A DNA stretch of 64,000 nt. It comes from Modestobacter sp. DSM 44400. Lineage in GTDB: Bacteria > Actinomycetota > Actinomycetes > Mycobacteriales > Geodermatophilaceae. The notes beneath the pieces were generated by a model that was given only the letters and a program-made list of their open reading frames with translations, was not told where the DNA came from and did no database searches. The stretch covers positions 62,001 to 126,000 of the forward strand of contig NZ_FNOZ01000008.1 in the NCBI RefSeq assembly GCF_900107175.1, in the 5' to 3' direction. Shown here one piece after another: positions 2,565-53,617 of this stretch. Position numbers and translations under genes: made by a program. The stretch's first letter is position 1, and every line of letters begins with the position of its first letter.

Positions 2565-3541
2565 GTGATCCACGCCCGCGGCCTCGCCCGCACGTTCCGG
2601 AAGAAGAAGCAGACGGTGCACGCCGTCGCCGGCGTGGACCTCGACGTCGAGGCCGGGGAGATCGTCGGCTTCCTCGGACCGAAGGGGGTCGGCAAGACCA
2701 CCACCCTGCGCATGCTCACCACTCTGCTCGAGCCCACCGCCGGCACCGCCACGGTCGCCGGGTGCGACCTGGTCCGTGACCCGGTCGGGGTGCGCCGGCG
2801 GATCGGCTACGTCTCGCAGAGCGGGGCCACGGCTCCCGAGGCGCGCGCCGGTGAGGAGGTGGTCGACCACGCGCGGCTGTACGGCATCAGCACCGCCGAG
2901 GCCACCGCCCGCGGCAAGCTGCTGTTCCGCGAGCTGGACCTGGACGGGCTCTGGGAGCGGTAGCCCAAGGCCATGTCCGGCGGACAGCGGCGGCGGCTGG
3001 ACACCGCCGTGTTCCTGGTGCACGTGCCCGGCCTGGTCTTCCTCGACGAGCCCACCACCGGACTGGACCCGGACGGCCCTGCTGCAGGGACCCGCGCCGA
3101 GCTTGCGAGGTGCGGGGGGCAGCAGGGTCCTTCTACTTCCTCACCACCCACTACCTCGACGAGGCCGACGCGCTGTGCGACCGCATCCTGGTCATCGACG
3201 CCGGCCGGATCGTGGCCAGCGGCACGCCGGACCAGCTGAAATCCGAGGTCGGCGGCGACGTCCTCACCGTGACCGCGGAGCGTTCCGAGCAGGCCGGCGA
3301 GGTCGCCCGGCTGATCGGCGCACTGCCCGGCGCCGAGGTGCTGGGGTCCCAGGTCATCGGCCGGGTGCCCGCCGGCGGTTCCGCGCTGGTGGCGCTCGTG
3401 CGGAAGCTGGACGCCGCGGGAATCGCGGTCGCCGGCATCGAGAGCCGCCGGCCCAGCCTGCGCGACGTGTTCCTGGGGCTCACCGGCCGGTCGCTGCGCG
3501 AGACCGGCGCCCCCGTCCAGCCCGAGGAGGCCCTCCGATGA
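2565..3541 (+). pseudogene. Broken ABC-2 type exporter ATPase (DrrA/NodI class)
   Basis: The frame opens at GTG 2565 and encodes a drug-exporter-type ATPase. Walker A is altered (GPKGVGKTTT, where the family has GPNGAGKTTT). The signature [10 protein letters not shown] and Walker [14 protein letters not shown] are present. An in-frame TAG at 2961-2963 interrupts just before the signature, where relatives read on. After LDPDG the frame is lost in a hairpin repeat (3075-3132). Translation resumes in another frame at [13 protein letters not shown] with the H-loop and a full C-terminal domain to 3541. One nonsense codon and one frame loss mean no full-length product. It precedes a likewise broken permease, so the exporter is dead. 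Confidence 0.85.
3075..3132 (+). repeat. Family-1 hairpin repeat, copy A, inside the ABC ATPase gene
   Basis: Outer arms GGCCCTGCTG and CAGCAGGGTCC flank a core with the conserved loop GAGCTTGCGA, itself held by a small GCC/GGT stem. Four other full copies lie at 45448, 46881, 50683 (inverted) and 53561. This copy occupies the stretch where the ATPase should encode about 16 residues between the D-loop and the H-loop, and the reading frame changes across it. Confidence 0.75.
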
Positions 3542-4258
3542 ACACGCTGGCCCGCGACACCTACACCGTCTTCGCCCGGGCGATGCGGATGTCGTTGCGC
3601 ATGCCGGCCTGGCTGGTCATCAGCCTGATGCAGCCGGTGCTCTACATCGTGCTGTTCGGCCCGCTGCTGAAGCCGCTGACGTGCCCGGCATCCTGGTGCA
3701 GCTGGGCATCTTCGGCGCGCTGTTCGTCGGCTTCGGCCTGATCGCCGAGTACCGCGCCGGGGTCATCGAGAGCCAGCGGGTCCCCCCGGCCAGCCGGACG
3801 GCGCTGCTGCTGGGGCGGGTGCTGCGCGACGTCGTCGTCCTGCTGGTGCAGGGCACGCTGCTCGTGCTGGTCTCCATCCCGCTGGGTCTGCGCGCGCCGG
3901 TGCTCGGCGTCGTCCTGGCGCTGGTGGTCATCGCCCTGCTCGGCGCGGCGTTCGCGTCGGTGTCCTACGCGCTGGCGCTCACGCTCAAGAGCGAGGACGC
4001 GTTCGCACCGCTGCTCAACGCCGTCGTCCTGCCCGTGCTGCTGCTGTCGGGGATCCTCCTGCCGATGACGCCGGCCCCGGGCTGGCTGCAGGCGATCAGC
4101 GACGTCAACCCGCTCAAGCCGTGGTCTCCGGGGCGCGCGCGTTCTTCGACGGCGACTACGGCAGCAGCACCGCGTGGTGGGGTGCCGGGCTGACCGTCGC
4201 GATGGGCGTGCTCGGCTGGTGGTTCGGGGTGCGACGTTTCCGGCAGGAGTCCAGCTGA
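3538..4258 (+). pseudogene. Broken ABC-2 type exporter permease (DrrB class)
   Basis: The start overlaps the ATPase stop (ATGA), as in intact exporter operons. The first 45 residues (MNTLARDTYTVF, then a membrane helix ending GPLLKPLT) are in one frame. The match then jumps to another frame at VPGILVQLGIFG, with roughly 10-15 residues apparently deleted near 3680. A second frame change near 4125 leads from DVNPLKPW to a C-terminal helix ending WWFGVRRFRQESS at 4258. Six helices characteristic of ABC2_membrane can be pieced together. Both lesions look like small deletions. The gene is decayed along with its ATPase. Confidence 0.85.
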
Positions 4259-4280
4259 CGAACTGATCCCACCTGTCACT

Positions 4281-4307
4281 CGAAAGCGTGTCGATCGGGT
4301 GCTTTCG
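4281..4307. other. Small hairpin upstream of phoH2
   Basis: CGAAAGC (4281-4287) and GCTTTCG (4301-4307) can pair around a 13-nt loop. It lies after the broken permease and about 175 bp before phoH2. It may terminate the old exporter transcript or sit in the phoH2 leader; no T run follows. I see no gene in 4259-4480. Confidence 0.35.
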
Positions 4308-4480
4308 TCGGTGGCGCGGCCTAGCGTCCGCGGTGGAGGACGAGTTCCACCTCGTCGTCCACGGGAGGTCCGGTTGGTGCGACTTGGTTCGTCGACCAGA
4401 GGGGCCGCGTCCTGGCCCCTGCGCCGGGGCCCGGCCACCTTCGAGCCGGGGCGCGCTGTGCGCCCCACGGGAGCCGACTC

Positions 4481-5776
4481 GTGATCATTCGCCGCACGTA
4501 CGTCCTCGACACCTCCGTCCTGCTGTCCGACCCGGGGGCCCTGCTCCGCTTCGCGGACAGCGACCTGGTGCTCCCGCTCGTCGTCATCGGGGAGCTCGAG
4601 GACAAGCGGGACCACCCCGAACTCGGGTGGTTCGCCCGGCAGACGCTGCGCATGCTCGACGACCTGCGGGTGCAGCACGGCCGGCTCGACGCGGCGATCC
4701 CGGTCGGTGACCAGGGGTGCACCCTGCACGTCGAGCTCAACCACAGCGACTCCTCCGTGCTGCCGGCCGGTTTCCGCAACGACAGCAACGACAGCCGGAT
4801 CATGGTCGTGGCGCTCAACCTGCGCGCCGAGGGCAGGGACGTCTGCTTGGTCACCAAGGACGTGCCGCTGCGCGTGAAGGCGGCGGCCGTGGGGCTGGCC
4901 ACCGACGAGTACCGCGGGCAGGGTGCGGTCGAGACCGGCTGGAGCGGGATGCGCGAGCTGTCGCTGGACGAGGCGGAGATCAGTGCCCTGTACGAGTCCG
5001 GGTCGGTGTTCCTCCCGGCGGCCGCGGAGCTGCCCACCCACACCGGGCTGGTTCTGCTGTCCACCCGCGGGTCGGCGCTGGGGCGGGTCACGCCGGACAA
5101 GCAGGTGCGTCTGGTGCGCGGAGACCGGGATGTCTTCGGGCTGCACGGTCGCTCGGCCGAGCAGCGGATCGCGCTGGAGCTTCTGCTGGACCCCGAGGTC
5201 GGCATCGTGTCGATGGGCGGGCGTGCGGGCACCGGTAAGTCGGCGCTCGCGCTGTGTGCCGGCCTGGAGTCGGTGATGGAGCGGCGGGCACACAAGAAGG
5301 TGGTCATCTTCCGCCCGCTGTACGCCGTCGGCGGCCAGGATTTGGGCTACCTGCCCGGCAGCGAGGGCGAGAAGATGGCGCCGTGGGCCCAGGCGGTGTT
5401 CGACACCCTCGGCGCGCTGGTCTCCCCGGCCGTGCTCGACGAGGTCATCGGCCGCGGCCTGATCGAGGTGCTGCCGCTGACCCACATCCGCGGGCGCTCG
5501 CTGCACGACTCGTTCGTGATCGTCGACGAGGCGCAGTCCCTCGAGCGCGGGGTCTTGCTGACCGTGCTGTCGCGGCTGGGCACCAACTCCCGCGTCGTCC
5601 TCACCCATGACGTCGCGCAGCGGGACAACCTGCGCGTCGGCCGGCACGACGGCGTCACCGCGGTGATCGAGGCGCTGAAGGGACACCCGCTGTTCGCGCA
5701 CGTGACCCTGACCCGGTCGGAGCGCTCGCCGATCGCCGCCCTGGTCACCGAGATGCTGGAGGACCTCCCGCTCTGA
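4481..5776 (+). CDS. phoH2: PIN-PhoH fusion protein (PhoH2 family)
   Basis: A 431-residue cytoplasmic protein. Residues 1-130 form a PIN ribonuclease domain ([12 protein letters not shown] with the first acidic residue, [23 protein letters not shown]). Residues about 215-430 form a PhoH ATPase with Walker [11 protein letters not shown] near 247 and Walker B VIVDEAQS near 348. Mycobacterial PhoH2 is known as a sequence-specific RNA helicase and RNase. GTG 4481 is the start, with GGGAG about 8 nt upstream. It sits near the Rv1086-like transferase, as in mycobacteria, and marks the left edge of the block split by the flagellar island. A hairpin repeat follows directly. Confidence 0.93.
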
Positions 5777-5781
5777 GACCG

Positions 5782-5851
5782 GCTCTTGCGCCGTTCTGTC
5801 CGTTCTCGCGCCGTTGCACGACAGCGAGAGCGGCAGCAACGGCGCAAGAGC
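5782..5851. repeat. Hairpin repeat, left flank of the AbiEi-like gene; possible bidirectional terminator
   Basis: GCTCTTGCGCCGTT (5782-5795) is the exact complement of AACGGCGCAAGAGC (5838-5851). A further partly matching inner pair lies near 5803-5830. The 15-mer CAACGGCGCAAGAGC at its right end recurs exactly at 6903-6917, beyond the other side of the gene. It lies between convergent genes (phoH2 rightward, AbiEi-like leftward), so it can serve as a shared terminator. Confidence 0.65.
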
Positions 5852-5854
5852 AGG

Positions 5855-6778
5855 TCAGCGTCGGCCCCCGCGGGCGAAGGCGCGCTCCAGCCGGTCCCGG
5901 ATCACCTCTGGGGTGTCGAGTTCGGGCCACGTCCAGCGCGCCATCTGCCAGCCGAGGTCGCGCATCTCGTCCTCGCGCAGCTTCTCCTCGTACACGGCGT
6001 CACCCGCTGACTGCCCCGGCCGCAGCAGCCGCCCGTACTTGATGCGACCGTCGAACTCACCGAGGGTCGCGACGTCCTCCCAGCCGAAGTCGCCACGCCC
6101 CACGAGCGTGCTGTCCACCCGGCGGACCTCGACCTGGAGGGCCGGTGCGGGCAACCCCAGCCGCCGGAAGAGCACCCGGCTACGGCTCTCGCCGACACTG
6201 CCGCTGCGCCCGTCGGCGAACGCCAGGACGCGAGCGGCGCGCCGTGATCCGGGCACGGGGCCCATGCGGTCGAGGCAGGCGGCCAGCCGAGCCGGCGTCG
6301 TCGTCCGGCGGCCCAGCGCCGCGTCGGCCACGACGACCGCGGACTCGAACGGCACCGTGCGCGCCAGGTCGATCACGGTGCGCGTGACGTCGGTCAGGAC
6401 GACGCCGTCCATCACACAGGTCTCCTCCAGCGAAAGCCGCGCCACGTGCAGGCGCAACCGCCTGCTGCCGGTGCCGGCGGACGGCGGCTCCCGGGTCACG
6501 TGCACCCGCTCGAAGGGGACCCGCCACAACGGCAGGTCGTGCAGCAGCGCCGCGGAACCGTGGCTGAGCACACCGGGGACCCGGAGTCCGGCAAGGGTGG
6601 CGAGGACGACCGCACGGTGGCGGAGGTCCGGCGTCGCGGCCGGCCCGGACAGGTACGCACCGCGCTGCAACCGCTCGAGGTCGTTGCGGCGGACCAACCG
6701 AGCGAGCTCTGCGTCGGTGTACCCCTCGGCCAACGCGGCAGCCCGAAGCAGGACGACAGGTGCTGGAGGCCGGGTCAC
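5855..6778 (-). CDS. AbiEi-like winged helix plus DUF559-like (PD-(D/E)xK) protein
   Basis: A 307-residue protein. The N-terminal 60 residues (AAALAEGYTDAELARLVRR, LERLQRGAYLSG) match the AbiEi antitoxin N-terminal helix-turn-helix. The C-terminal third has the layout of DUF559/Vsr-like endonucleases: GESRSR, then GRGDFGW near residue 226, then LGEFDGRIKYG and a late YEEKLREDEMRDLGW, consistent with PD-(D/E)xK. No AbiEii partner lies beside it. Such stand-alone proteins are common in actinomycetes and their role is not settled; nuclease or defence function is inference. The start is GTG 6778; the frame is open further upstream but without similarity. Both flanks carry the same hairpin repeat. 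Confidence 0.7.
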   Translation of the reverse strand: MTRPPAPVVLLRAAALAEGYTDAELARLVRRNDLERLQRGAYLSGPAATPDLRHRAVVLATLAGLRVPGVLSHGSAALLHDLPLWRVPFERVHVTREPPSAGTGSRRLRLHVARLSLEETCVMDGVVLTDVTRTVIDLARTVPFESAVVVADAALGRRTTTPARLAACLDRMGPVPGSRRAARVLAFADGRSGSVGESRSRVLFRRLGLPAPALQVEVRRVDSTLVGRGDFGWEDVATLGEFDGRIKYGRLLRPGQSAGDAVYEEKLREDEMRDLGWQMARWTWPELDTPEVIRDRLERAFARGGRR

Positions 6779-6847
6779 CCGGCGAGCGTGGCCCGATGGT
6801 GGGGGTCGAGGAGTGCGGGGCAGCTCACTGCTGTGGACAGCGCGCCT

Positions 6848-6917
6848 GCTCTTGCGCTGACGCGTGCGCGTTTGCGCCGATGCGATACCGCAAACGCGGG
6901 CACAACGGCGCAAGAGC
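6848..6917. repeat. Hairpin repeat, right flank of the AbiEi-like gene
   Basis: Outer arms GCTCTTGCGC (6848-6857) and GCGCAAGAGC (6908-6917) enclose a second perfect pair, GCGTTTGCG and CGCAAACGC (about 6868-6898). The right arm with flank, CAACGGCGCAAGAGC, is identical to 5837-5851. The element ends exactly at the stop codon of the next leftward gene. Confidence 0.6.
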
Positions 6918-7157
6918 TCAGGAGGTGGCGGGCTCGTCGTCGGCCGGTTCGACCCGGGCCGGCCGCTCCCGCGGCGCCGGCTGCCGGGGTGCGCTGGCGA
7001 AGCGGACCAGGGCGACCGCCGCCCAGCCGGCGCCGAGGCACCAGACCAGGCGGGTGGCCACCTCGTCGGCGGTGAGGTCGCCACGCAGGCCCAGCAGGAG
7101 CACCGGCACGGCGAGCAGGAATCCGCAGATCAGCACGTCCCAGCGAAACGGACTCAC
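6918..7157 (-). CDS. Small membrane protein at the end of the flagellar operon
   Basis: A 79-residue protein with two hydrophobic segments (VLICGFLLAVPVLLLGL near 8-24 and LVWCLGAGWAAVALVRF near 38-54) and a charged Pro/Glu-rich tail. It is the last gene of the leftward flagellar run, starting 22 bp after the FlhF-like gene ends. I recognise no family; a flagellar role is suggested only by position. Confidence 0.55.
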   Translation of the reverse strand: MSPFRWDVLICGFLLAVPVLLLGLRGDLTADEVATRLVWCLGAGWAAVALVRFASAPRQPAPRERPARVEPADDEPATS

Positions 7158-7179
7158 GAAACCGCACCGCCTGTCTGCA

Positions 7180-9867
7180 TCAGTGCATCTCCTCCAGCCG
7201 CTCGCACAGCAGGGAGGCCCAGCAGTGCGCGGTGGCGCGGGCGCCGTCGACGCGGGCCACCGGGGCGGTCACGTGGCTCAGCACGGCGGCGGGGTCGGCG
7301 GTGCAGTCGGCGTCCTGCACGACCACGGCGTCCAGGCGGGGCAGACCGTCCAGCCAGGGGACGACGTCCTCCAGCTTGCGGGTGGCGTCCACGACGCCCC
7401 ACACCGCGACCGGCGCCCAGATCGTCAGCATCTGCGCCAGCCAGCCGCCGCCACCGGTGCGCAGCGGCGCGTCGACGGCGACGATGGTGACCGACCCGGC
7501 GTCGGCGCTGTGCTCGGCGCGCTGGACAGCGGTCTCCATCGTGGTGATCCGGCTGTGCTCCGGAGCGAGGTAGGCCGCGTCGCTGGGCGTGGCCCACTGC
7601 ACCCGCGCCGGGTCCAGCCGCAGCGAGACGGCGAGCGACCGGGCGGCGGCGAGGGTCTCCGGACCGGGCCCGACCACCAGCAGCACGTCTCCGGGCTCGG
7701 CCGGCACCTCCGGCAGTGCGGGCAGCCGCGCACCCAGCGTCCGGGTCAGCGCCGCGTAGGTGCCCCGGACGGCGGCGTCGGCGGCGAAGTCGGGGGCGAT
7801 CAGGAACTCGGGCAGGCCCAGGGCCAGCAGCCGGACCACCAGCTCGTCGTCCCGGCTGAGGTGATAGGGCGCCATTTCCTTCGACGTCGAGCGGACCAGC
7901 CGGGTGACCGTGGCCAGCCCGCGCTCGGTGTCGCGGGGGGCCGCGGGCAGGCCCAGGGGCAGCCGCAGGTCGCGGTGGGTGTCGGTCACGTCCAGCGCGG
8001 TGCTGTCGATCGAGCCACCGGCCGACGCCGGCACCGCCGGGCGGACGGCGGTCGGGCGGCTGCCCGTGCTCGGGCCCCGGTCCAGGGGACGGCGCGGCGG
8101 CGGCACCGCCGGGCGGCCCTTGAGCATGGGCGGCTGCCCACCGATGGAGCCCATCCGCTGCGGAGGCAGCAGCGACAGGGGCGGCAGGATCGTGGTGGCG
8201 TCCATCGGCATGGGCGCCGGGTCGCTCGCGGTCCGCGCCATCGGCCAGGCGGCCATCGACGGCGTCATGACCAGCGGCTCGCGGTGGGCGAGGACCTCGT
8301 GCGCCCGCAGGTCCATGCGGAACTCCTGGGTGCGGAAGTCGTGCGCGTGGACGTCGGGCGTGCGGATGTCGTGCACACGGACCTCCTCCCGGCGGACGTC
8401 GGCGATCCAGCCCTCGGTGGCCGTGACCTGGGCGACCGCCGGCACCTGCTCGAACGCGACGTGCTCGACCCCCACCGGCTCGGCCAGCGACCCGGTCCCG
8501 AACAGCCCGGCGTCGAACACGGAGTCGTCGAACATCGAGTCGTCGAACAGGTCGTCGTCGAACAGGTCGTCGTCGAGCAGCGCGGCGTCGAGCTCGACGG
8601 GTCCGGCGCAGGCCAGGTCGACCGGCGCCTCCTCCTGGACGGTCTCCTCGGCGGTGGTCGCGTCTGCGGCGATCGGGTGCTCCGTCTCGTGGTGCAGGGT
8701 CTCGTGGTGCGGGGTCTCGTGGTGCGGGGTCTCGTGGTGCGGGGTCTCGTGCTGCGCGGTCACGAGGGAGGTCCTCGACTCCGGGAAGCGGTGTCGGCCG
8801 GTGGCCGTCAGGTCGTCGTCCTCGGCCGCGGGGGCATCGCTTGCGAGGACCCGCTCCATGACGCCTTCGAGCAGGCGCTCGGCGCCGGGATCGGCGGTAC
8901 CCGGGCCGGCCGCGGTGAGCACCGACTTCAGCGCCGACTGCAGCGAGTCACCCTGGTCCATCGGCTGCTCGGCGACGGTCGCGACGGCCTCCTCGACGAA
9001 CGGCTCGAACGTCTCCTCGACCTCGACCTCGTCTTCGAACCGCGGCTGGCGCAGCACCGCCGGCTCGACGGGCGCCGGCTCGGCGGAGCGCTCGATGGCA
9101 TCGTCCACCGCGGCCGAGACCTCGCGGTCGGCCGACATCCGCGCCAGGGCGGCGGTGAACGCAGAGGGGCCGGCGGGCGCGACGGGCGCGGCGGCGACCG
9201 GCTCCGGTGTCACGTCGTAGCCGTCCAGCGTGGGCCGGTGGCGCTTGGGTGCGAAAGTGGTCGCCTCCGCCTGGGCGGCGGCGCGCGCCTCGGCGACGGT
9301 ACGGGCGCGCGGGGTGGCGCCCGCGGGGGCCGCCGTCCGGGACGTGGAACGGGACGGGCCCCCGCCCCAGGGAGAAGCAGCGCTGCGCTTGGGGGTCGCA
9401 CCCCACGGCGACTCGGCCGGGGCGGTGCTGCTCTTCGGTGTCGCCCCCCACGGGGAGGCAGCCGGCCGGGCAGCAGCCGGCGCGGCGGCGCGGGGACGGC
9501 GCTGGGCGACGAGGTCCTCGATCGCCGGGGCCTGCGCGACACCGGTGGAGGAGTACAGCCCGAGCGGCATCTCAGCGGAGGCCGGGCCCAGCAGGTCGGC
9601 GAGCTCGACCATCCGGTCGTCCTCGGACGCCCGCGCCCGGGGGGCCCGACGGCCGCCCTCGGCGCCCGGCGCCTTGCGGGCGGGCTCCTCGGCGCGGGCC
9701 GCGGGAAGGTCCACCTCGGCGACGAAGCGCTCGTTGGAGAAGAAGCCCATCACCCCGCCCGAGCGGATCCGGCGGACGCCGATGATCTTCACCGACGGCC
9801 CGTACTCCTCGCGTGCGGCCGCGATGGCCTCCTCACGCGTGGCGGCCTCAACGGATTGCGACGGCAC
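7180..9867 (-). CDS. FlhF-like protein with a degenerate GTPase domain and a long low-complexity linker
   Basis: An 895-residue protein. The first 50 residues (EAATREEAIAAAREEYGPS, then VKIIGVRRIRSGGVMGFF) match the FlhF N-terminus. A long linker follows, with Pro/Ala/Arg stretches, an HHETP tandem repeat at about 370-394, an acidic DLFDD repeat at about 425-450 and a His/Asp repeat at about 495-520. The C-terminal 250 residues resemble the FlhF SRP-type GTPase fold, but the Walker A position reads VVGPGPETLAAA and lacks GxxGxGKT. It overlaps the flhA end by 20 nt. FlhF normally guides flagellar placement; this version should not hydrolyse GTP in the usual way. Confidence 0.75.
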   Translation of the reverse strand: MPSQSVEAATREEAIAAAREEYGPSVKIIGVRRIRSGGVMGFFSNERFVAEVDLPAARAEEPARKAPGAEGGRRAPRARASEDDRMVELADLLGPASAEMPLGLYSSTGVAQAPAIEDLVAQRRPRAAAPAAARPAASPWGATPKSSTAPAESPWGATPKRSAASPWGGGPSRSTSRTAAPAGATPRARTVAEARAAAQAEATTFAPKRHRPTLDGYDVTPEPVAAAPVAPAGPSAFTAALARMSADREVSAAVDDAIERSAEPAPVEPAVLRQPRFEDEVEVEETFEPFVEEAVATVAEQPMDQGDSLQSALKSVLTAAGPGTADPGAERLLEGVMERVLASDAPAAEDDDLTATGRHRFPESRTSLVTAQHETPHHETPHHETPHHETLHHETEHPIAADATTAEETVQEEAPVDLACAGPVELDAALLDDDLFDDDLFDDSMFDDSVFDAGLFGTGSLAEPVGVEHVAFEQVPAVAQVTATEGWIADVRREEVRVHDIRTPDVHAHDFRTQEFRMDLRAHEVLAHREPLVMTPSMAAWPMARTASDPAPMPMDATTILPPLSLLPPQRMGSIGGQPPMLKGRPAVPPPRRPLDRGPSTGSRPTAVRPAVPASAGGSIDSTALDVTDTHRDLRLPLGLPAAPRDTERGLATVTRLVRSTSKEMAPYHLSRDDELVVRLLALGLPEFLIAPDFAADAAVRGTYAALTRTLGARLPALPEVPAEPGDVLLVVGPGPETLAAARSLAVSLRLDPARVQWATPSDAAYLAPEHSRITTMETAVQRAEHSADAGSVTIVAVDAPLRTGGGGWLAQMLTIWAPVAVWGVVDATRKLEDVVPWLDGLPRLDAVVVQDADCTADPAAVLSHVTAPVARVDGARATAHCWASLLCERLEEMH
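8684..8757. repeat. 15-bp tandem repeat inside the FlhF-like gene
   Basis: The unit GTGGTGCGGGGTCTC is repeated about five times with few changes. Read leftward it encodes HHETP-type pentapeptides. Such arrays change in copy number by slippage, so length variation between strains is expected. Confidence 0.8.
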
Positions 9868-27802: not shown

Positions 27803-28000
27803 ACCTCCGGTGAGGTAAAGGAGCGGCTGCGCCGCGCTGTCGGACACATGGGAGCGGGCCTTCGGCCCCTCCGGTGAATGGCTTCGCGATTCACCGGAGG
27901 TACCTCCGGTGAGGAATAGGTGCGGCTATGCCGCACTGTCAGGCACATCAGGGCTGGCCTCCGGCCCAAGTGACGAATGGCTTCGCGATTCGTCACTTGG
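27803..28000. repeat. Family-2 repeat, two tandem 99-bp three-hairpin units between fliF and fliG
   Basis: Units 27803-27901 and 27902-28000 each carry three hairpins. (i) GCGGCtgcGCCGC (27823) and GTGCGGCtatGCCGCAC (27920). (ii) GGGCCttcGGCCC (27856) and GGCCtccGGCC (27956). (iii) A long stem around the identical loop GGCTTCGCG: arms 27868-27879 with 27889-27900, and 27966-27978 with 27988-28000, all perfectly paired but of different sequence. The fliF stop codon lies in the last stem, and the fliG ribosome-binding site is at 27803-27808. A third unit lies at 30325. Confidence 0.85.
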
Positions 28001-29558
28001 CATCGGCGAACCAGCCGCGCAGCATGGTCGCGACCTCGTCGGGACGGTCGCTGACCATCTCGGCGATCTCTCCGCGGACCTTCTCGCGCTTGGCCAGCTC
28101 CACCCGGGCCTGCATGTCGTCCAGCTCCGGGTCGCGGATGCTCGACACCTGGATGCGGTCGAGCTCCAGGTCGTCGTCGTCGAGCTCGAGCTCCTCGTAG
28201 TCCTCACCGCGGCGGCGACGCGAGCGCAGCCACACGATGAGCCCCAGGAGCAGGATGCCGGCGCCGATCCCGCCGGTGCGGATCAGCGACCACATCTGCT
28301 GGCTCTTCTCGGCAGCCGCAGCCGCCGCCAGATCGGCCTTGGCCTGTGCGGCGGCGCTCTGGTCGAAGGCCATCGCGGCGACCGAGATGGCATCGCCCCG
28401 GGCGGGGACCAGGCCGACGGCGTTGCTGACGGCGTCCTGGATCTGCTGCTGGTTGAGGCCGCCGGCGATGGCGTTGTCCATGACGACCGAGACGGTCAGC
28501 CGGTTGATCGCCCCGGGCGCACCCTCGACGGTCTCGGTGGTCTTGTCGACGGCGTTGTTCGACGTCGTCGACTCCTTGTTGTACGTGGAGTCGCCGGTGC
28601 CGCCGGTCCCGGTGCTCTCGGAACCCAGCACCCCGCCGACCGCCCCACCCGTGCCGGTGTAGTCCTCCTTCGTGGTCGTGTCCGACAACGCCGGGGTGCC
28701 CGGGGTGTAGCTGTAGCTCTCGCTGGTCGTGTCCCGCTGGGAGAAGTCCAGGTCCGCGCGCACGGACACGACGGCGTTGCCCGGGCCGGCCACCCGGTCC
28801 AGGATCTGCTGGGCGTTGGCCGCCAGCCGCGCCTCGAACTCCTGCTCCTGCTGCGCCTGCGCGTCCCCGGCGGCGCTGCTGACGCCCTCGCCGGCGGCAG
28901 AGAGCACTGCGCCGGTGGAGTCGGCGACGGTCACGTCCGCGGCGTCCATCTTCTCGATGCTGGAGGACACCAGGTGGGTGACCGCCTGGACCTGCTCCCC
29001 GGAAAGGTTGGTGCCTGGGGCGAGCTCGAGAAGCACCGAAGCGGTCGGCTTGCCCTCGTCGGTGGCGAACACCTCCTCCTTGGGCAGGGCGATGTGCACA
29101 ACCGCGGAGTTCACCCCGTCGATCGCCTTGAGGGTGCTCGCCAGCTCGCCCTCCAGTGCCCGCTGGTAGGAGACCTGCTGCTGGAACTCGCTGGTCGTGA
29201 TGCCCTGCTGGTCCAGCAGGGCGTAGCCGGTCTCGTTGCCGGCCGGCAGGCCCTTGCCGCTCATGGTCAGGCGCAGGCCGTAGACCCGGTCCTGGGCGAC
29301 CATGATCGTCTGGCCGCCGTCGGCGAGCTCGTACGCGACGCCCTCGGCGGTGAGCTCCTCGACGATGGCCGAGGCATCGGTGCTGGCCAGGTTGGAGAAC
29401 AGCGGCGACAGCGTCGGCGCGGTGATCCACCGGGTGAACATGAAGCCACCCAGCAGGAGACCGGCGACCAGGAGACCGATCACGATCTTCTGGCCGACGC
29501 TGATGGTCTCCAACAGCGTCTTGATGCGGTTCAGCGGGCCGGCGAGGGCGGCGGGCAT
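27993..29558 (-). CDS. fliF: Flagellar MS-ring protein FliF
   Basis: A 521-residue protein with one helix near 26-45 (IVIGLLVAGLLLGGFMFTRW) and a second near 435-455 (GIGAGILLLGLIVWL), enclosing the ring-building domains (LSPLFSNLASTDASAIVEEL, then VHIALPKEEVFATDEGKPTA). The C-terminal tail (MARV-like MQARVELAKREKVRGEIAE, then MLRGWFADAK) binds FliG. It ends inside a hairpin of the family-2 repeat. It overlaps the fliE stop by one base. Confidence 0.97.
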   Translation of the reverse strand: MPAALAGPLNRIKTLLETISVGQKIVIGLLVAGLLLGGFMFTRWITAPTLSPLFSNLASTDASAIVEELTAEGVAYELADGGQTIMVAQDRVYGLRLTMSGKGLPAGNETGYALLDQQGITTSEFQQQVSYQRALEGELASTLKAIDGVNSAVVHIALPKEEVFATDEGKPTASVLLELAPGTNLSGEQVQAVTHLVSSSIEKMDAADVTVADSTGAVLSAAGEGVSSAAGDAQAQQEQEFEARLAANAQQILDRVAGPGNAVVSVRADLDFSQRDTTSESYSYTPGTPALSDTTTKEDYTGTGGAVGGVLGSESTGTGGTGDSTYNKESTTSNNAVDKTTETVEGAPGAINRLTVSVVMDNAIAGGLNQQQIQDAVSNAVGLVPARGDAISVAAMAFDQSAAAQAKADLAAAAAAEKSQQMWSLIRTGGIGAGILLLGLIVWLRSRRRRGEDYEELELDDDDLELDRIQVSSIRDPELDDMQARVELAKREKVRGEIAEMVSDRPDEVATMLRGWFADAK

Positions 29559-30324: not shown

Positions 30325-30403
30325 GGAACGGAACGGCTGCGCCGTGCTGTCATGGGAGCCGGCCTTCGGCCACTCTGATGGATGGCTTCGCGATTCATCA
30401 GGC
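30325..30403. repeat. Family-2 repeat, third copy, between flgB and flgC
   Basis: Three hairpins in the same order as at 27803: ACGGCtgcGCCGT (30333-30345), GGCCttcGGCC (30361-30371), and CTGATGGAT (30375-30383) with ATTCATCAG (30393-30401) around the identical loop GGCTTCGCG. The last stem has one G-T mismatch. The unit lacks the terminal ACCTCCGGTGAGG of the other copies. It starts 3 bp after the flgB stop in the direction of transcription. Confidence 0.75.
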
Positions 30404-36764: not shown

Positions 36765-37250
36765 ATGGACCACCAGCACCTGTCGACGTTGCTCTGGCGT
36801 GAGCAGGAGCTGCTCGACCTGCTCCTGTTCAAGGCCGAGGAGAAGCAGTACCTGATCCTCACCGGGAAGACCCGGTGGCTGGCCCGGATCGCGCACGAGA
36901 TCGAGGTCGTCCTGGACCAGCTGCGCACCCTGGAGGTCGAGCGCGCGGCGGCCACCGAGCAGATCGCCGGCCGGTTGGGTCTGACGGCGAACCCGTCGCT
37001 GCGTCAGCTCGCCGAGGTCGCACCGGTGCCGTGGAGTGACCTCTACGTCAAGCACCACGAGAACCTGCTCACGCTCGTCACCGAGCTGCGCACCCTCTCC
37101 GACGCCAACAAGGGTCTGATCGAGGGCGGCCTGGCCGCCATCGGCGACGCACTGCTGTCGACCCGGGGCACCGCCGCGGGCACGTACACCAACCATGGGC
37201 GGGCGGCGGGCAACGCCTACCGCGCCGTGACGCTGGACGGTGCCCTGTGA
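36765..37250 (+). CDS. flgN: Flagellar export chaperone FlgN
   Basis: A 161-residue helical protein beginning MDHQHLSTLLWREQELLDLL, with LTGKTRWLARIAHEIEVVLD and a long C-terminal helix (LYVKHHENLLTLVTELRTLS). FlgN escorts the junction proteins FlgK and FlgL, which follow directly. GGGAGG lies about 8 nt before the ATG. Its stop codon overlaps a GAGCTCGCGA-loop hairpin. Confidence 0.92.
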   Translation: MDHQHLSTLLWREQELLDLLLFKAEEKQYLILTGKTRWLARIAHEIEVVLDQLRTLEVERAAATEQIAGRLGLTANPSLRQLAEVAPVPWSDLYVKHHENLLTLVTELRTLSDANKGLIEGGLAAIGDALLSTRGTAAGTYTNHGRAAGNAYRAVTLDGAL

Positions 37251-40869: not shown

Positions 40870-41982
40870 GTGTCCCACCCCGCTCTGCCCACTACCGCCC
40901 TGCCCACGACGGCGATCGACGACCGTCCGCGCACCCGCGAGCCCCTCGTCTTCGGGGGCATCAGTGAGGCCGAGGGCTGGGCGCTGGCGCCGATCACCCC
41001 GCGCGACCGGGTGCACTTCCGAGCCGACCGCGAGCTGCCGCTGGCCACCTTCCGGGCCACGCTGCCGGCCGGCGTCATTGTCACCTACGACGAGGGCGAG
41101 GGCCTGTACCGGGTCGACGGCGCATGCGGGGAGGGCGACTCCATGGCGACCCTCATCCGGGCCTGGTGCGCCGAGCACGGCTACGCCACGGTCGGCCTGC
41201 GCGCCGAGGCCGACGTGCGCCGGCGGGCTCCGCGGGACCTGCCGTCGGACTTCCTCGCCGACCTGTGCCGGCACTACTGCCGGATCAGCCTCAAGCGGCT
41301 GCAGCGGAACATGAGCACCATCCGGCTGCACCTGCCCGACAACGACGACGTCGACCAGCAGGTCGCCGAATGGGTGCTGAAGGCCGTCGGACAGTACGAC
41401 GAGGGCAAGGGCGTCCCTTTCGGGGCCTTCCTGGCCACCCAGCTGTCCAAGTGGGTGCACGACCTGGGCCGCAACGCCTACGGCCGCACCGCTGCGGACA
41501 CCGAGAACAAGCAGCAGAAGGCGATCGCCGCCTTCACCGCGGAGCACCAGCGCCGGCCGAGCGAGAAGGAGCTGGCCGCCTACATGGGGCAGAGTGTCGC
41601 CACCCTGCGCCGCAACTCCCAGACGGTGGCCACCCTCAACGGTCTGCGCAACCTGCACTCCCTGGACGGCGGCCCGGACTCGGTCGAGTACGTGCTGCCC
41701 GACAGCGCCGAGGTGCCCGACGAGCTCATGGGCGAGGCGGAGCAGACGCTGCTGTCGCACGCGCTCACCGCTGCCTGCGCTCCCGACCCGACCGCCCGGC
41801 GTGACCAGCGCGCCGCCCAGCCGAACGTGCTGGGTTGGGCGACCTGGTACCTCACCACCTGGGGCGGCAAGACCAAGACCCAGCTCTCCAACGAGCTGGT
41901 CACCTCGGTGCGCAACATGAACGTGCACGCCGACCGGGCAGAGCGCGCCCTCAAGGAGCGGCTCACCGAGTTGGCCGGCTGA
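40870..41982 (+). CDS. Divergent sigma-70-like protein beside the flagellar genes
   Basis: A 370-residue protein. An N-terminal 130-residue part is unfamiliar. The middle reads like sigma regions 2-3 of FliA/WhiG: WVLKAVGQYDEGKGVPFGAF, LATQLSKWVHDLGRNAYG and FTAEHQRRPSEKELAAYMGQ. The C-terminal part (WYLTTWGGKTKTQLSNELVT, then ALKERLTELAG) could take the place of region 4, but no clear helix-turn-helix is visible. GGAGG lies 5 nt before GTG 40870. It may be a specialised sigma factor, an anti-sigma-like decoy or a phage-type regulator. Inference from motif likeness only. Confidence 0.6.
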   Translation: MSHPALPTTALPTTAIDDRPRTREPLVFGGISEAEGWALAPITPRDRVHFRADRELPLATFRATLPAGVIVTYDEGEGLYRVDGACGEGDSMATLIRAWCAEHGYATVGLRAEADVRRRAPRDLPSDFLADLCRHYCRISLKRLQRNMSTIRLHLPDNDDVDQQVAEWVLKAVGQYDEGKGVPFGAFLATQLSKWVHDLGRNAYGRTAADTENKQQKAIAAFTAEHQRRPSEKELAAYMGQSVATLRRNSQTVATLNGLRNLHSLDGGPDSVEYVLPDSAEVPDELMGEAEQTLLSHALTAACAPDPTARRDQRAAQPNVLGWATWYLTTWGGKTKTQLSNELVTSVRNMNVHADRAERALKERLTELAG

Positions 41983-45240: not shown

Positions 45241-45399
45241 GGCCCGTGTCCCCGTCGACTCGTCCGATCCCGGCCCGCCCGGCCGGTCGGCAGGCGGGGT
45301 ACCGGTCTCTCATCGACGCGTCCGGAGGGCAGGAGGAGAGGCGGCCACCGGGTCGGGGGGTGAGGTTCACCCCGGAGGGTGAGAGGGGGAGATAGCACG

Positions 45400-45431
45400 A
45401 GGCCCCGCCGTCCGGATGGACGACGGGGCCT
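45400..45431. terminator. Hairpin between gltA and the wall-hydrolase gene
   Basis: AGGCCCCGCCGTC (45400-45412) and GACGACGGGGCCT (about 45419-45431) pair at 12 of 13 positions around a 6-nt loop. It can terminate the leftward gltA transcript after the family-1 repeat. Confidence 0.6.
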
Positions 45432-45447
45432 GGTGACGTGCTGGAGC

Positions 45448-45504
45448 GGCCCCCTTCCAGGGGCCCGCGCTGAGCTTGCGAAGCGTGGGGAGGAAGGGGG
45501 TCCT
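45448..45504 (+). repeat. Family-1 hairpin repeat, copy B, downstream of gltA
   Basis: Outer arms GGCCCCCTTCC and GGAAGGGGGTCC; inner stem CGCT/AGCG around the loop GAGCTTGCGA. The arm sequence differs from copies A, C, D and E yet stays paired. It abuts the gltA stop codon. Confidence 0.8.
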
Positions 45505-46806
<1,302 letters not shown>

Positions 46807-46880
46807 CACTCGGGACGCTACTCAGTTCTCCGCCATCCGCGACACGGCCCCGCCGTCCGGCCCCGTCCAGCCCGTCCTAC

Positions 46881-46934
46881 GGCCCCCTGCAGGGTCCCGC
46901 CGCGAGCTTGCGAGTGGTGGGGGGCAGGGGGTCC
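46881..46934 (+). repeat. Family-1 hairpin repeat, copy C, between fumC and gltA
   Basis: Outer arms GGCCCCCTGC and GCAGGGGGTCC; inner stem CCGC/GTGG around GAGCTTGCGA. It lies 3 bp after the fumC stop in the direction of transcription. Confidence 0.8.
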
Positions 46935-46937
46935 TTT

Positions 46938-48864: not shown

Positions 48865-48889
48865 CCGCCCGGCCGGGCACCGCGATGGG

Positions 48890-49945
48890 TCAGCCGTCGT
48901 GCCCGAAGGGGACGGCGGAGTACTGGCTAAGCTTCTGCAGGGAGTGCAGGCTCTCGATGGAGCGGATCGTGCCCGACCGCGACCGCATGACCAGCGACTG
49001 CGTGGTCGCGCCACCGGAGCGGTACTGCACCCCGCGCAGCAGCTCGCCGTCGGTGATGCCGGTGGCCACGAAGAACACGTCGCCGGAGACCAGGTCGTCG
49101 ATGTCGAGCACCCGGTCCAGGTCGTGGCCGGCGTCCAGCGCCTTCTGCCGCTCTTCGTCGTTGCGCGGCCACAGCCGGCCCTGTAGGGCGCCGCCCATGC
49201 ACTTGAGGGCACAGGCGGTGATGATCCCCTCGGGGGTGCCGCCGATGCCCATCAGCAGGTCGACCCCGGTGCCCTCACGGGCCGCGGCGATGGCTCCGGC
49301 CACGTCGCCGTCGGTGATGAACTTGATCCGGGCGCCGGCGTCTCGCACCTCCTGGACCAGCTGCTGGTGGCGCGGCCGGTCGAGGATGCAGACGGTGACG
49401 TCGCCGACCGAGCTCTTCTTGGCCTTGGCGACCCGGCGGATGTTCTCTGCGGTCGGTGCGGTGATGTCGATCGCGTCGGCGGCCGCGGGACCGGTGGCGA
49501 TCTTGTCCATGTAGAAGACCGCCGACGGGTCGTACATGGCGCCCCGGTCGGCGACCGCCATGACCGCGATCGCGTTGGGCATGCCCTTGGCCATCAGCGT
49601 GGTGCCGTCGACGGGGTCGACGGCGACGTCGCACTCGGGGCCCTGCCCGTCGCCGACCTCCTCGCCGTTGAACAGCATCGGGGCCTCGTCCTTCTCGCCC
49701 TCCCCGATGACGACGACGCCACGCATGCTGACGGTGCCGATCAGGGCCCGCATCGCGTCGACGGCCGCGCCGTCGCCGCCGTTCTTGTCACCGCGGCCGA
49801 CCCACCGCCCGGCGGCCATCGCGCCGGCCTCGGTGACCCGGACCAACTCCATCGCGAGGTTGCGGTCGGGGGCCGGCCGGTCCCCGCCGGACCAGGCGGT
49901 ACCAGGCGTGGTGGTGCTGGGCAGCGGGCTCTCGGGCAGGGACAC
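48890..49945 (-). CDS. glpX: Class II fructose-1,6-bisphosphatase
   Basis: A 351-residue enzyme of gluconeogenesis. [32 protein letters not shown] and [20 protein letters not shown] near residue 112 supply the metal and substrate sites; [20 protein letters not shown] lies later. In mycobacteria glpX also follows fum. The first 28 residues are an unconserved Pro/Thr/Ser lead. Confidence 0.96.
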
Positions 49946-50019
49946 GCGAACCTCCTCGGACGACCACCGGCCGACGCTGGCCGACGGGGTGGGGGAGCTG
50001 TGCTGCGATCCTAGGGGGC

Positions 50020-50679
50020 ATGGCAGAACCCGGCCCGCGCGGTCATCGTCCCGACGAGCAGGCCCCGCCCGTCGTCCCCCCGGCCGCCGAGGTCGGGGCC
50101 GCGCCGTCCGCGGGCTCCACGAAGCTGTCGCCGGCCGAGCTGCGGGCGCTGAAGTTCACCGCCCGCAACATGCTGTGGTCGCTGCTGCCGTTGACCGTGC
50201 TCGTCGTCGTCATGGTCTGGTGGACCCAGCTGCGCCAGCCCGACCAGGTGGTGCGGCCGGTCGAGATTGACGGTTCGGTGTTCCTGGCCTCGCAGCGGGC
50301 GGCCTATCCACTGCTGATCCCACAGGGGTTGTCTGACGGGTGGCAGCCGACGAGCGTGCGCACCGATGCCGGCGCGGCCGCCGACCCCGGCGATCCGGTG
50401 ACCCTGCAGATCGGCTGGTACACCCCTGACGGCGAGTACGCCGGCTACGTGGTCAGTGACGACGCCGAGGTCGACGCGCTCACCGACGTGCTGGGCGACG
50501 CGACCGCCGACGGCACAGCGCAGGTGGACGGCGTCCCGTGGCAGCGGCTGACCACGGGGCGCGGTGAGACCGCGCTGACCCGCACCGAGGGGACGGTGAC
50601 GCTGCTGGTCACCGGCTCGGCGGTTGAGGAGGAGTTGGAGGAGCTGGCGGGTGCCGTCAGCCCCTACCGCGCCTCCTGA
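50020..50679 (+). CDS. DUF4245 membrane-anchored protein
   Basis: A 219-residue protein with a charged N-terminus, one helix near 52-70 ([16 protein letters not shown]) and an extracellular domain ([20 protein letters not shown], then [20 protein letters not shown]). It matches the actinobacterial DUF4245 proteins, one of which lies next to glpX in mycobacteria. Divergent from glpX; only 74 bp separate the starts, so the promoters overlap. Function unknown. Confidence 0.88.
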
Positions 50680-50682
50680 GGA

Positions 50683-50739
50683 AGGACCCCCCTGCCCCCC
50701 ACCGCTCGCAGGCTCGCGGCGGGCCCCTGCAGGAGGGCC
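50683..50739 (-). repeat. Family-1 hairpin repeat, copy D (inverted), between convergent genes
   Basis: Read on the minus strand, outer arms GGCCCTCCTGC and GCAGGGGGGTCC (one T-G type mismatch) and inner stem CCGC/GCGG hold the loop GAGCCTGCGA, one base off the other copies. It fills the gap between the DUF4245 gene and xseB. Confidence 0.75.
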
Positions 50740-50746
50740 GCTGGCG

Positions 50747-50959
50747 TCAGTCGGTGGGCTGGGCGGCGGCCAGGCGCTCGCGGGCCCGGTCCAGCCAGTG
50801 CCGGCACAGCTCGGCGAGCTCCTCGCCGCGCTCCCACAGCGACAGCGACTCCTCGAGTGGGAGCCCGCCCGCCTCCAGCCGACGGACCACGTCGGCGAGT
50901 TCCTCGCGCGCCTGCTCGTAGGTCTGCGTCGGCTCCTGCTTCTCAGGGGTGTCGCTCAC
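50747..50959 (-). CDS. xseB: Exodeoxyribonuclease VII small subunit
   Basis: A 70-residue protein with the family pattern TYEQAREELADVVRRLEAGG, then LPLEESLSLWERGEELAELC. It pairs with XseA to degrade single-stranded DNA. GTG 50959 has GGAGAGG about 9 nt upstream; ATG 50968 is the alternative. It overlaps the xseA end by 17 nt. Confidence 0.94.
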   Translation of the reverse strand: MSDTPEKQEPTQTYEQAREELADVVRRLEAGGLPLEESLSLWERGEELAELCRHWLDRARERLAAAQPTD

Positions 50960-52190
50960 GAAGCCCATCCTCTCCGGTGGCCGTCCGGTCGACGCGGACC
51001 GGGAGCCTGCCGCCGGCGACGCGGACCTGCAGCCGCTCGTCGTCGGCGACCTCAGTCGGGTTGCGGACGAGTGAGCCGTCGGCCCGCTGCACCACCGCAT
51101 AGCCACGCTGCAGGGTCGCGGCGGGAGAGAGGGCGGCCACCCGGGCCCGGGCGTGCCCGAGGTCCCGCTCGGCGGAGTCGACCCGGTGGGTGAGCGTCCG
51201 GGTGGCGCGCCCGCGCAGGGCCAGGACGTCGTCGGCCCGGCCGGCGAGCAGCCGCTGCGGCTCGGCGAGCACCGGGCGGGAGCGCACCGACTCCAGCCAG
51301 CGCTCCTGCTGCTCCAGCCGGCCGGTCACCAACGAGCGGGCGCGGGCACGTAGCCCGTCGACCAGCCGGCGCTCCTCACCGATCTCGGGCACCACCCGGT
51401 GCGCGGCGTCGGTGGGGGTGGCCGCGCGGACGTCGGCCACGTGGTCGACGAGCGTGGTGTCGGTCTCGTGGCCGACGGCGGTGACCACCGGCGTACGGGT
51501 GGCGGCGATCGCCCGCACCAGGCCCTCGTCGGAAAAGGGCAGCAGGTCCTCGACCGACCCGCCGCCACGGGCGATCACGATCACCTCGACCGCCGGGTCG
51601 GCGTCCAGCTGCCGTAGCCCGTCGATGACGCCGGCGGCCGCGGTCGGCCCCTGGACGGCGCAGTTGTGCATCGCGAACCGGACCGCCGGCCAGCGCCGCC
51701 GGGCAGTGACCAGAACGTCGCGCTCGGCGGCGCTGTCCCGCCCGGTGATCATCCCGACGACGGCCGGGGCGAACGGCAGCGGCCGCTTCCGGACGACGTC
51801 GAAGAGTCCCTCGGCGGCCAGCAGCTGGCGGATCCGCTCGATCCGGGCAAGCAGCTCGCCCAGCCCGACGGCGCGGATCTCGGTGGCCCGCAGGCTGAAG
51901 GAGCCGCGGGCGACGTAGTAGTCCGGGCGGGCGCGGACGATGACCCGGGCACCCTCGGTGAGCACGAGACCGGGACGGTCGGCGACGTCGCGGTGGCACG
52001 TCACCGGTACCGAGAGGTCCGCCGCAGGGTCGCGCAGGGTGAGGAAGACGGTCGCGGCGTTGCCCCGCCGGGACAACTGCGCGACCTGGCCCTCGACCCA
52101 GACCTCGCCCAGCCGGCCGATCCACTCGGCGACCTTGCGGGCGACGGTGCGCACCGGCCACGGCGACTCGGGCGAGGACGGGCTGCTCAC
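50943..52190 (-). CDS. xseA: Exodeoxyribonuclease VII large subunit
   Basis: A 415-residue nuclease. An N-terminal OB fold (GEVWVEGQVAQLSRRGNAAT, then VFLTLRD) is followed by the catalytic domain (VVGMITGRDSAAERDVLVTA, VIVIARGGGSVEDLLPFSDE, TAVGHETDTTLVDHVADVRA) and a C-terminal coiled coil. Ends RGYAVVQRADG as in the family. GTG start at 52190. Confidence 0.96.
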   Translation of the reverse strand: MSSPSSPESPWPVRTVARKVAEWIGRLGEVWVEGQVAQLSRRGNAATVFLTLRDPAADLSVPVTCHRDVADRPGLVLTEGARVIVRARPDYYVARGSFSLRATEIRAVGLGELLARIERIRQLLAAEGLFDVVRKRPLPFAPAVVGMITGRDSAAERDVLVTARRRWPAVRFAMHNCAVQGPTAAAGVIDGLRQLDADPAVEVIVIARGGGSVEDLLPFSDEGLVRAIAATRTPVVTAVGHETDTTLVDHVADVRAATPTDAAHRVVPEIGEERRLVDGLRARARSLVTGRLEQQERWLESVRSRPVLAEPQRLLAGRADDVLALRGRATRTLTHRVDSAERDLGHARARVAALSPAATLQRGYAVVQRADGSLVRNPTEVADDERLQVRVAGGRLPVRVDRTATGEDGLRERHP

Positions 52191-52239
52191 CTTCCCGAGC
52201 CTGCCAGGTGTGCCGGCTGGACACCGCCTTGCCCCGCTG

Positions 52240-53490
52240 TCAGGCCGGCGACGAGGTGAGCTTGGTCAGCCGGTTCGACAACAGCGTCACGTACGACGCG
52301 CGGGCGCGGGTGGCCTGCTCGTACTCCAGCAGTGCCTGGACCGTCTCGGCGTCGAAGCTGCGCAGCCGCCCGCGCAGCGTCGGGATGCTGTAGCCGTCGT
52401 AGCCCTCGACCGGCGCGGCGCCGGCGGCCTGCGAGCCCGCGAGGTCGCTGCCGCCCTCGGGCTCATCGGTGACCGCCTCCGGCGCCTGCTCCGGCGCCCG
52501 CTCGGACTCGTCGGCGGTCGTGGTGTTCGCCCCGGTCACCCCGGGGAGGGCGTCGGCGCCGGCCACGTCCGGCTGCACGACAACGGGCTCGGCGGCGCCC
52601 AGGTCGATCACCTCGGCGGCCGCGTCGTCCAGCGCCTCGACATCCGGGGCGACGTCGCCGAGAGCCACCTCCGAGGGTGCCTCCGCGGGGCCCTGGCCCG
52701 AGGTCGTCGCCTCGGCCGCGGCCTCGGCCTCGGCCACCTCTTCGTCGGCGACGGTCGCGACAGTGTCGGCGGCCAGGTCGTCGGCCAGGTCGTCGGCGAC
52801 CGTCTCCGGCAGCTCGGCGGCGAGCTCGGCGTCCACCTCGGCGGCCAGTTCGTCGACCGCCTCGGTCACGGCGTCGGCCGGTGGGTCGGCGGGCAGGTCG
52901 GCGACCTCGGCGTCGCTGAGGCCCGCACCCTCGGCCGCCAGGGTCTCGAATGCGAGGACGTCGGTGAGCGGCGCGGCGTCCGCGATGTCGTCCGCGCCGT
53001 CTGCCAGCTCCTCGAGCGCGGCGTCCAGCAGCGCGCCCTCGACCGGGGCGGCGTCGGCCAGCTCCTCGATCGCAGTCTCGACCTCCACGTCGATCACCTC
53101 GACGTCGGCCATCGCGTCCCCGAGGTCGACGATCTCGTCGCTGAGCTCGACGGTCAGGTCGTCGGCGGGGCTCTCGGCCAGGTCGACGACCCGGTCAAAG
53201 GCCGAGCTGCGCGGCGCGGGCCGGTCGCCGGGGACGGTCACCGGCGGCTCGTCCTCGTCGAAGGTGGCCATGCCGGGCTCGGACTCGCCCCACAGCCCGG
53301 TGAACACCTCGTCGCCCCGGGCGACGAGCCCGGAGTACTGCTGCTGGAGGCGCAGCGAGGTCTGCAGGGCCAGTCCGATGAGCCGCACCGGCAGGCCGGG
53401 GAGGGTCGCGGGCAGCTTGCAGGTCTCGTCCAGGACGGTGGCGACCAGTCCGGCCGCAGCACGGACGGCCTCGGGGATCTCTCGAGCCAT
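52240..53490 (-). CDS. Lipid-droplet-associated-type protein with a long acidic insert
   Basis: A 416-residue protein. The first 70 residues (IPEAVRAAAGLVATVLDETC, then LPGLPVRLIGLALQTSLRLQ) and the last 55 (GYSIPTLRGRLRSFDAETVQ, then ATRARASYVTLLSNRL) match the actinobacterial family containing Rv1109c, which also sits between xseA and lytB2. Between them lie about 280 residues rich in Ala, Asp, Glu and Val, far longer than the family norm of about 200 in total. ATG 53490 starts the conserved part. Confidence 0.78.
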   Translation of the reverse strand: MAREIPEAVRAAAGLVATVLDETCKLPATLPGLPVRLIGLALQTSLRLQQQYSGLVARGDEVFTGLWGESEPGMATFDEDEPPVTVPGDRPAPRSSAFDRVVDLAESPADDLTVELSDEIVDLGDAMADVEVIDVEVETAIEELADAAPVEGALLDAALEELADGADDIADAAPLTDVLAFETLAAEGAGLSDAEVADLPADPPADAVTEAVDELAAEVDAELAAELPETVADDLADDLAADTVATVADEEVAEAEAAAEATTSGQGPAEAPSEVALGDVAPDVEALDDAAAEVIDLGAAEPVVVQPDVAGADALPGVTGANTTTADESERAPEQAPEAVTDEPEGGSDLAGSQAAGAAPVEGYDGYSIPTLRGRLRSFDAETVQALLEYEQATRARASYVTLLSNRLTKLTSSPA

Positions 53491-53560
53491 GGACCCCAGC
53501 GTGCCGTACGGCGGCCCGACCGGCAGCCTGACGTGTGCCCTCGTCCCCCGGATCTCACTC

Positions 53561-53617
53561 GGCCCGCCTGCAGGGGCCCGCCGCGAGCTTGCGAGCGATG
53601 GGGGCAGGCGGGTCCTG
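53561..53617 (+). repeat. Family-1 hairpin repeat, copy E, upstream of ispH
   Basis: Outer arms GGCCCGCCTGC and GCAGGCGGGTCC; inner stem CGC/GCG around GAGCTTGCGA. It ends about 17 bp before the ispH ATG and would fall in the ispH leader or promoter. Confidence 0.8.

Follow-up and report, generated by a model that had tools for sequence, protein, structure and literature searches.

What multiplies a small hairpin through a bacterial genome, and what holds its copies beside stop codons? The question is raised by a window of 64,000 nucleotides (nt), the whole stretch of DNA analysed here, from Modestobacter sp. DSM 44400 (assembly GCF_900107175.1, contig NZ_FNOZ01000008.1, positions 62,001 to 126,000), in which an earlier note had described a dispersed hairpin with a conserved loop, ends GGCCC...GGTCC and arms that change in step. 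We found that these hairpins form a family of about 300 copies per genome in Geodermatophilaceae, that the pairing of both stems is well supported, that the loop-bearing strand is preferred for folding, clearly at certain pairs but not at the rest, that placement at stop codons is precise, and that occupancy differs between related genomes. Tentatively, and with a confidence just short of even, we read the hairpins as palindromes similar to repetitive extragenic palindromes (REPs) that do without the REP-associated tyrosine transposase (RAYT), are still spreading or turning over in Geodermatophilaceae, and are kept at gene ends, perhaps as a putative transcription boundary.

Five hairpins in the window

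The five copies, given on the strand that carries the loop, are:

3075..3130, + strand: copy 1, loop 3099-3108; within an ABC-ATPase gene remnant; no antisense stop codon adjoins it
45448..45503, + strand: copy 2, loop 45472-45481; the citrate synthase gene (- strand) ends in a TAG stop 1 nt away
46881..46934, + strand: copy 3, loop 46904-46913; the fumarase gene (- strand) ends in a TGA stop 3 nt away
50684..50739, - strand: copy 4, loop 50706-50715, GAGCCTGCGA; the DUF4245 gene (+ strand) ends in a TGA stop 4 nt away
53561..53615, + strand: copy 5, loop 53585-53594; the called ispH/LytB start is 18 nt downstream, without an adjacent antisense stop codon

A loop scan of the window returned four exact copies and the inverted variant with GAGCCTGCGA. 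A covariance model (R1), built on the loop strand from 24 aligned copies and run over the window with filters off, gave the five copies 69.6-80.1 bits (E 2.8e-14 or better), scores that hold partly by construction because all five are among the 24 seeds; the next-best place reached 16 bits (E 0.12). Contig C104 supplied no seed, and its 25 matches are free of that circularity. The five full copies, their ends and their loop, as the earlier note had described them, were thus borne out by the loop scan and by the covariance scores. The "minimal relative" that it had added at 37248 scored 11.1 bits (E 1.7) and was rejected as a chance match. Rfam gave no match in the window at its gathering score.

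Structure and covariation of the stems

The loop strand folds into an 11-bp outer stem, an internal loop of unequal sides [left (A/C)GGGN, right two nt] and an 8-bp inner stem whose fourth pair is often a G.T wobble and which is capped by the 10-nt loop GAGCYTGCGA. Two G.A mismatches and a CYUG tetraloop could presumably close this loop further. Copies in the window are about 54-56 nt long and are followed by a short T-rich foot. That the arms change in complementary fashion proved real on both samples analysed, with slid partners and shuffles as controls: among the 24 copies 94.5% of the stem cells were paired, against 48.7-61.4% in slid controls, and among 120 copies from named genomes the figure was 95.8%, against 41-60% with slid partners. 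Changes on both sides of a pair numbered 318 cells in the 120 copies and 7-34 for slid partners.

In 141 of 146 copies the loop strand folded more stably than the opposite strand (mean -36.3 vs -29.5 kcal/mol). Mismatches were then counted as G.T or A.C on the loop strand, after poorly paired or duplicate rows had been dropped. In 81 copies from five genomes, fetched without a flank pattern, the fixed wobble had a G.T to A.C ratio of 51:2, outer pairs 4-11 one of 18:2 and the second pair from the loop one of 18:0; at the remaining inner pairs it was 10:9, with no strand bias. Larger samples gave 103:22 (197 copies) and 70:17 (255 copies, or 23:15 without the pair second from the loop), but both include loci fetched by pattern. 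That pattern requires the inner G.T wobble; it supplied the 80 named loci that entered the analysis (116 had been fetched), and wobble counts are inflated wherever these loci are included, the 120 copies above among them. Selection on a folded structure, which the earlier note had proposed, is supported in part, by the covariation and by the loop-strand bias at several pairs.

Placement at stop codons

Genes were called by a codon-usage script, and 4 of the 150 matches, lying near ends, were dropped. In 97 of the remaining 146 copies the stop codon of a gene on the opposite strand lay -1 to 7 nt past GGTCC, and in 57 it lay at exactly 4 nt, whereas random intergenic points had a stop in the -1 to 7 nt range in only 115 of 4722 and 105 of 4255 cases (2.4%). 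A same-strand stop equally near on the GGCC side was found in 17 of 146. Four further genomes, from which 3 of 56 matches were dropped as partial, behaved alike: 39 of 53 copies had the antisense stop, 17 of them at exactly 4 nt, as compared with 4 of 53 on the other side. The sequence beyond GGTCC is mostly TTC(N), followed by the stop codon in reverse reading. Copies with such a neighbouring gene, here called hosted, numbered 103 at a wider distance limit. In C104 the loop-strand directions were mixed (12 plus, 13 minus), and orientation therefore follows the gene and not one replication arm.

Most copies are antisense to the adjacent gene, and a gene reading in the loop-strand sense ended within 25 nt of GGCC in 35 of 146. 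Among the 101 hosted copies with a called far-side neighbour, this neighbour lay on the host's strand in 64 and was convergent in 37; tandem gaps of 20 nt or less were avoided (6/64 vs 38%, p 4e-7). Enrichment between convergent genes was not clear, either in the own genome (8/22 vs 89/336) or in the family (29/79 vs 235/680). T occupied positions +1 to +5 of the foot in 87, 78, 27, 38 and 62% of the hosted copies and positions +1 and +2 in 81% and 74% of the non-hosted ones, and the opposite side of the hairpin was not T-rich. A target word TCAG was considered and rejected, as it was absent within 12 nt from all 43 copies without an adjacent antisense stop, copies in which the absence of a TCA stop is partly a matter of definition.

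In the window, the features adjoining copies 2 to 4 are:

45432..45447, + strand: left extension of copy 2, GGTGACGTGCTGGAGC; the extension adjoins 17 of 146 copies and is also a spacer in the half-hairpin arrays described below
45505..46809, - strand: citrate synthase gene adjoining copy 2, Pfam PF00285
46938..48332, - strand: fumarase gene adjoining copy 3, Pfam PF00206 and PF10415; its longest open reading frame extends to 48839
50020..50679, + strand: DUF4245 gene adjoining copy 4, Pfam PF14030

A convergent gene for the small subunit of exonuclease VII flanks copy 4 on the side opposite DUF4245.

Copy number and distribution

In the 5.0-Mb genome the loop word GAGCYTGCGA occurred 130 times and its backward control word 15 times, so that its abundance lies beyond chance. 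R1 matched at least 146 copies there (146 of the 150 candidates scored), and the 464 kb searched directly (400 kb of C104 plus the window) held 30 matches (E 1.2e-4 or better), from which we extrapolate about 300-320 copies per genome; all these copies are mutually related, and their counts are not independent events. The genome scan thus found many more copies than those of the window, and they covary. When 89 candidates were scored in each genome, a depth at which absences are weak, R1 matched all 22 genomes of the same genus, 9 of 12 from other Geodermatophilaceae genera and none of the 24 from other families of the order. A pattern scan of named genomes returned at least 116 stretches; titles among the matches listed were Geodermatophilus, Blastococcus, Modestobacter, Trujillonella, Goekera, Klenkia and unplaced Geodermatophilaceae; the exceptions were two Bacillus sp. 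AZ43 titles (flagged unverified) and one Frankiales. Loop counts over 96 family genomes, including the own one, ranged from 1 to 321 with a wide spread within one genus, values below about 20 being at control level; genus g4 lay close to background, and several genomes of g5 exceeded 200 loops.

Beyond the family, 17 candidates were scored with R1 in every one of 296 genomes from the class, a depth at which absences are weak; besides the own genome, R1 matched only two genomes, both of one genus (f18/g38). A model of the 35-position core, built partly from copies of that genus, gave 21 and 10 matches in these two genomes and weak ones (28.8-30.7 bits) in three more, with 23 candidates scored per genome and absences again weak. 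All 20 f18/g38 copies examined had the core loop or a close variant; an antisense gene ended 9 nt past the core match in 4 of the 20 and within 18 nt in 4 more, and not in the others. The core (loop, internal loop and often the wobble) thus recurs in another actinobacterial family. As the outer stems differ there and the foot is not U-rich, these copies argue against a shared role as plain U-tract terminators. Viral spread was considered and rejected: 12 IMG/VR contigs fitted a loose pattern, the best covariance score was 15.2 bits (E 0.31), none was counted as a member, and a second pattern had no match in IMG/VR.

Turnover between related genomes

Copy 1 replaces about 60 nt of the ABC-ATPase gene, at a place that is uninterrupted coding sequence in 8 of 8 relatives. 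The surroundings of the fumarase stop codon had a match in 3 of 12 relatives, one of them weak (E 1.3e-6). Near citrate synthase, the seven relatives aligned held one weak match (E 0.0016) and one copy in the opposite orientation, and upstream of ispH, where 6 relatives had both flanks, one of these had a match. We also compared two close pairs of genomes, which are 94.5% identical (first 200 kb of 600 kb) and 92.6% identical (over 200 kb). They held 56 model matches; 10 that were not placed or partial were left out, and 46 were placed in the partner, where 21 were unmatched, a category that includes remnants. Fairly clean filled/empty pairs were seen next to a TAG stop (L272:16441), between reading frames that overlap (L278:15163) and at L272:5518. 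At other sites the hairpin had lost internal sequence, another hairpin took its place, copies were nested, or a shared copy had changed arms; the copy shared by L261:7715 and L272:2735 has a paired change in the outer stem. The REP-like or MITE-like spread suggested by the earlier note (MITE, miniature inverted-repeat transposable element) agrees with the hundreds of copies, the loop counts of up to 321, the occupancy differences and the copy in former coding sequence; the loop-recognising enzyme that it had envisaged did not emerge.

Several results weigh against spread with retention at gene ends. The 35 Geodermatophilaceae genomes searched contained no Y1/RAYT transposase (PF01797), the enzyme to which the earlier note had pointed and which was present in 3 of 24 genomes from other families of the order and in 5 of 14 control genomes, and no loop-recognising or mobilising enzyme for the hairpin was identified. 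The reading frame of the ABC-ATPase stops at 2963, before the hairpin is reached, and the C-terminal domain lies in another frame; with more than one lesion the gene may have been dead before the hairpin came, and copy 1 is weaker evidence than at first sight. In the close pairs, 20 of the 46 placed copies were matched in the same orientation and 5 in the other (shared sites being counted from both sides), and some shared copies (L285:4262, L246:10298) were nearly unchanged, so part of the family is old and stable. Since many unmatched sites carry remnants or another hairpin, loss or exchange explains part of the occupancy difference, and most of the differences may be either gains or losses. 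No target-site duplication was recognised at the filled/empty pairs read by eye, where junctions in the 92.6%-identical genomes are inexact. The absence of strand bias at the remaining inner pairs points the same way. Moreover, random insertion followed by purging leaves the phasing to stop codons unexplained, and most copies have no gene read toward them in the loop-strand direction, which counts against a boundary or terminator-like role.

Several other palindromic arrangements were observed in these genomes. A second family with the core CACCAGCGTTGGTG and other arms occupies gene ends where the sister genome has the hairpin (the L295/L285 region, G001 site 331575 in joined coordinates; L269, the partner of L259:13855). 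At L259:13855-13963, L270:16181 and L308:3341, hairpins are apparently nested in, or merged with, an earlier copy. Tandem arrays of 46-nt half-hairpins, running from the left arm to mid-loop, lie at G000:C104 around 41342-41495 and 255960-256021 (L070, L080); their units are split by GGTGACGTGCTGGA(A/G)C, and an array ends in one complete hairpin beside a stop codon.

Comparison with known systems

Intrinsic terminators include species-specific conserved ones, such as TRIT of Mycobacterium tuberculosis. To some extent the hairpins resemble them, as stable structures behind genes with a T-rich foot on one side, and they differ from them in being mostly antisense to the adjacent gene and in having a conserved loop, an internal loop and a short C-containing foot. 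The MIRU repeats of mycobacteria are short and intergenic, touch stop codons and occur with tandem arrays. The present family has all these traits, but its unit is a single covarying hairpin, and its arrays consist of half-hairpins at two places of one 400-kb stretch. The conserved terminal inverted repeats of a DDE-type MITE were lacking, because the arms vary yet stay complementary and only the outermost letters, GGCC and GGTCC, are common.

REPs are described as high-copy palindromes located mostly downstream of coding regions and in some cases within genes, whose copy number varies widely between species (PMC3733652). Our hairpins are likewise multi-copy, palindromic, situated at gene ends and variable in copy number, with one copy inside a gene; high copy number, extragenic location and nearness to gene ends are REP traits. 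The abstract and passages of that paper on REPs distinguish a RAYT-associated GTAG super-family from a CGTC super-family without a dedicated transposase, which our family resembles in that none was found, and they do not name Actinobacteria (PMC3733652). The hairpins differ from REPs in their length (about 55 nt vs 20-40), in their two stems with an internal loop and in the conserved 10-nt loop (PMC3733652), as well as in their phasing to stop codons, the rarity of a GTAG-like foot and the absence of PF01797 from the 35 family genomes. They were not classed as RAYT REPs, because only 10 of 146 copies had a GTAG-like CTAC no more than 9 nt from GGTCC and none of those genomes had the Y1 transposase. 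Among the papers that a literature search returned, we recognised none dealing with this hairpin element.

Weighing the explanations

We tentatively favour REP-like palindromes that spread without RAYT. Copies would spread as a single-stranded hairpin, by means of an enzyme or of template switching during replication; insertions away from gene ends would be mostly purged, and those at gene ends retained, perhaps as a boundary at the neighbour's stop codon, where the loop-strand hairpin and its TTCNTCA foot might stop convergent or antisense transcription. The foot and the strand that folds make such a boundary or terminator-like role plausible. A stronger version, which seems to us clearly unlikely, would make the hairpins mobile palindromes of a new class: they would move as single-stranded hairpins with no Y1 transposase involved, and would either target antisense stop codons or be retained there to almost the exact base. 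Somewhat less unlikely, though still on that side, is a family of intrinsic terminators with a conserved loop, in which the hairpin of the loop-strand transcript and a pyrimidine foot would halt convergent or antisense transcription at the neighbour's stop, the copies being held by selection and changing mostly in place with exchange between copies. The stable loop-strand hairpin, a foot T-rich at +1 and +2 on that side only, the avoidance of short tandem gaps and the frequent presence of another hairpin at sites without the element all fit such terminators. However, in the 64 of 101 hosted copies whose far-side neighbour is on the host's strand no gene is read toward the hairpin, convergent genes are not enriched, the foot is C-rich from +3 and not U-rich in the f18/g38 copies examined, and termination does not need conservation of the loop, the internal loop and the G.T wobble.

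Conserved unpaired positions in the loop and internal loop, together with a core common to another family with different outer stems, would also suit a binding site whose folded or duplex loop region is recognised by a protein at gene ends, for instance in nucleoid organisation or RNA processing, and which spreads by site selection; as no candidate protein came to light, none having been looked for by experiment, and loop counts of 1-321 among relatives are left unexplained, we consider this improbable. More improbable still is a mutational by-product, in which palindrome-templated correction and template switching would match the arms and multiply the copies without selection or enzyme. The half-hairpin arrays that break within the loop, the nested copies and the near equal-length replacement in the ABC-ATPase gene are of the kind that such events would leave, but correction should erase the G.T wobble, which is kept in 51 of 81 copies, and the phasing to stop codons is not accounted for. 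Small gene-end palindromes are usually ascribed to RAYT enzymes or called terminators; here a large actinobacterial family turns over between close relatives with its pairing kept, no RAYT found, and a phasing to stop codons on the strand opposite the mRNA, which raises the questions of how palindromes without a RAYT are moved and whether the 3' ends of genes are protected from antisense transcription.

Other features of the window

A simple GC-rich palindrome at 45397-45434, downstream of citrate synthase, has a similar form in several aligned relatives. Diverged repeats with GAATGGCTTCGCGATTC occur in three copies at 27803-27992 and 30351-30397, and a short tandem repeat with a 15-nt period, GGTGCGGGGTCTCGT, at 8676-8765. 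ARAGORN called a tRNA-Ser(GCT) at 28391-28472, within a long open reading frame, which may be a false call.

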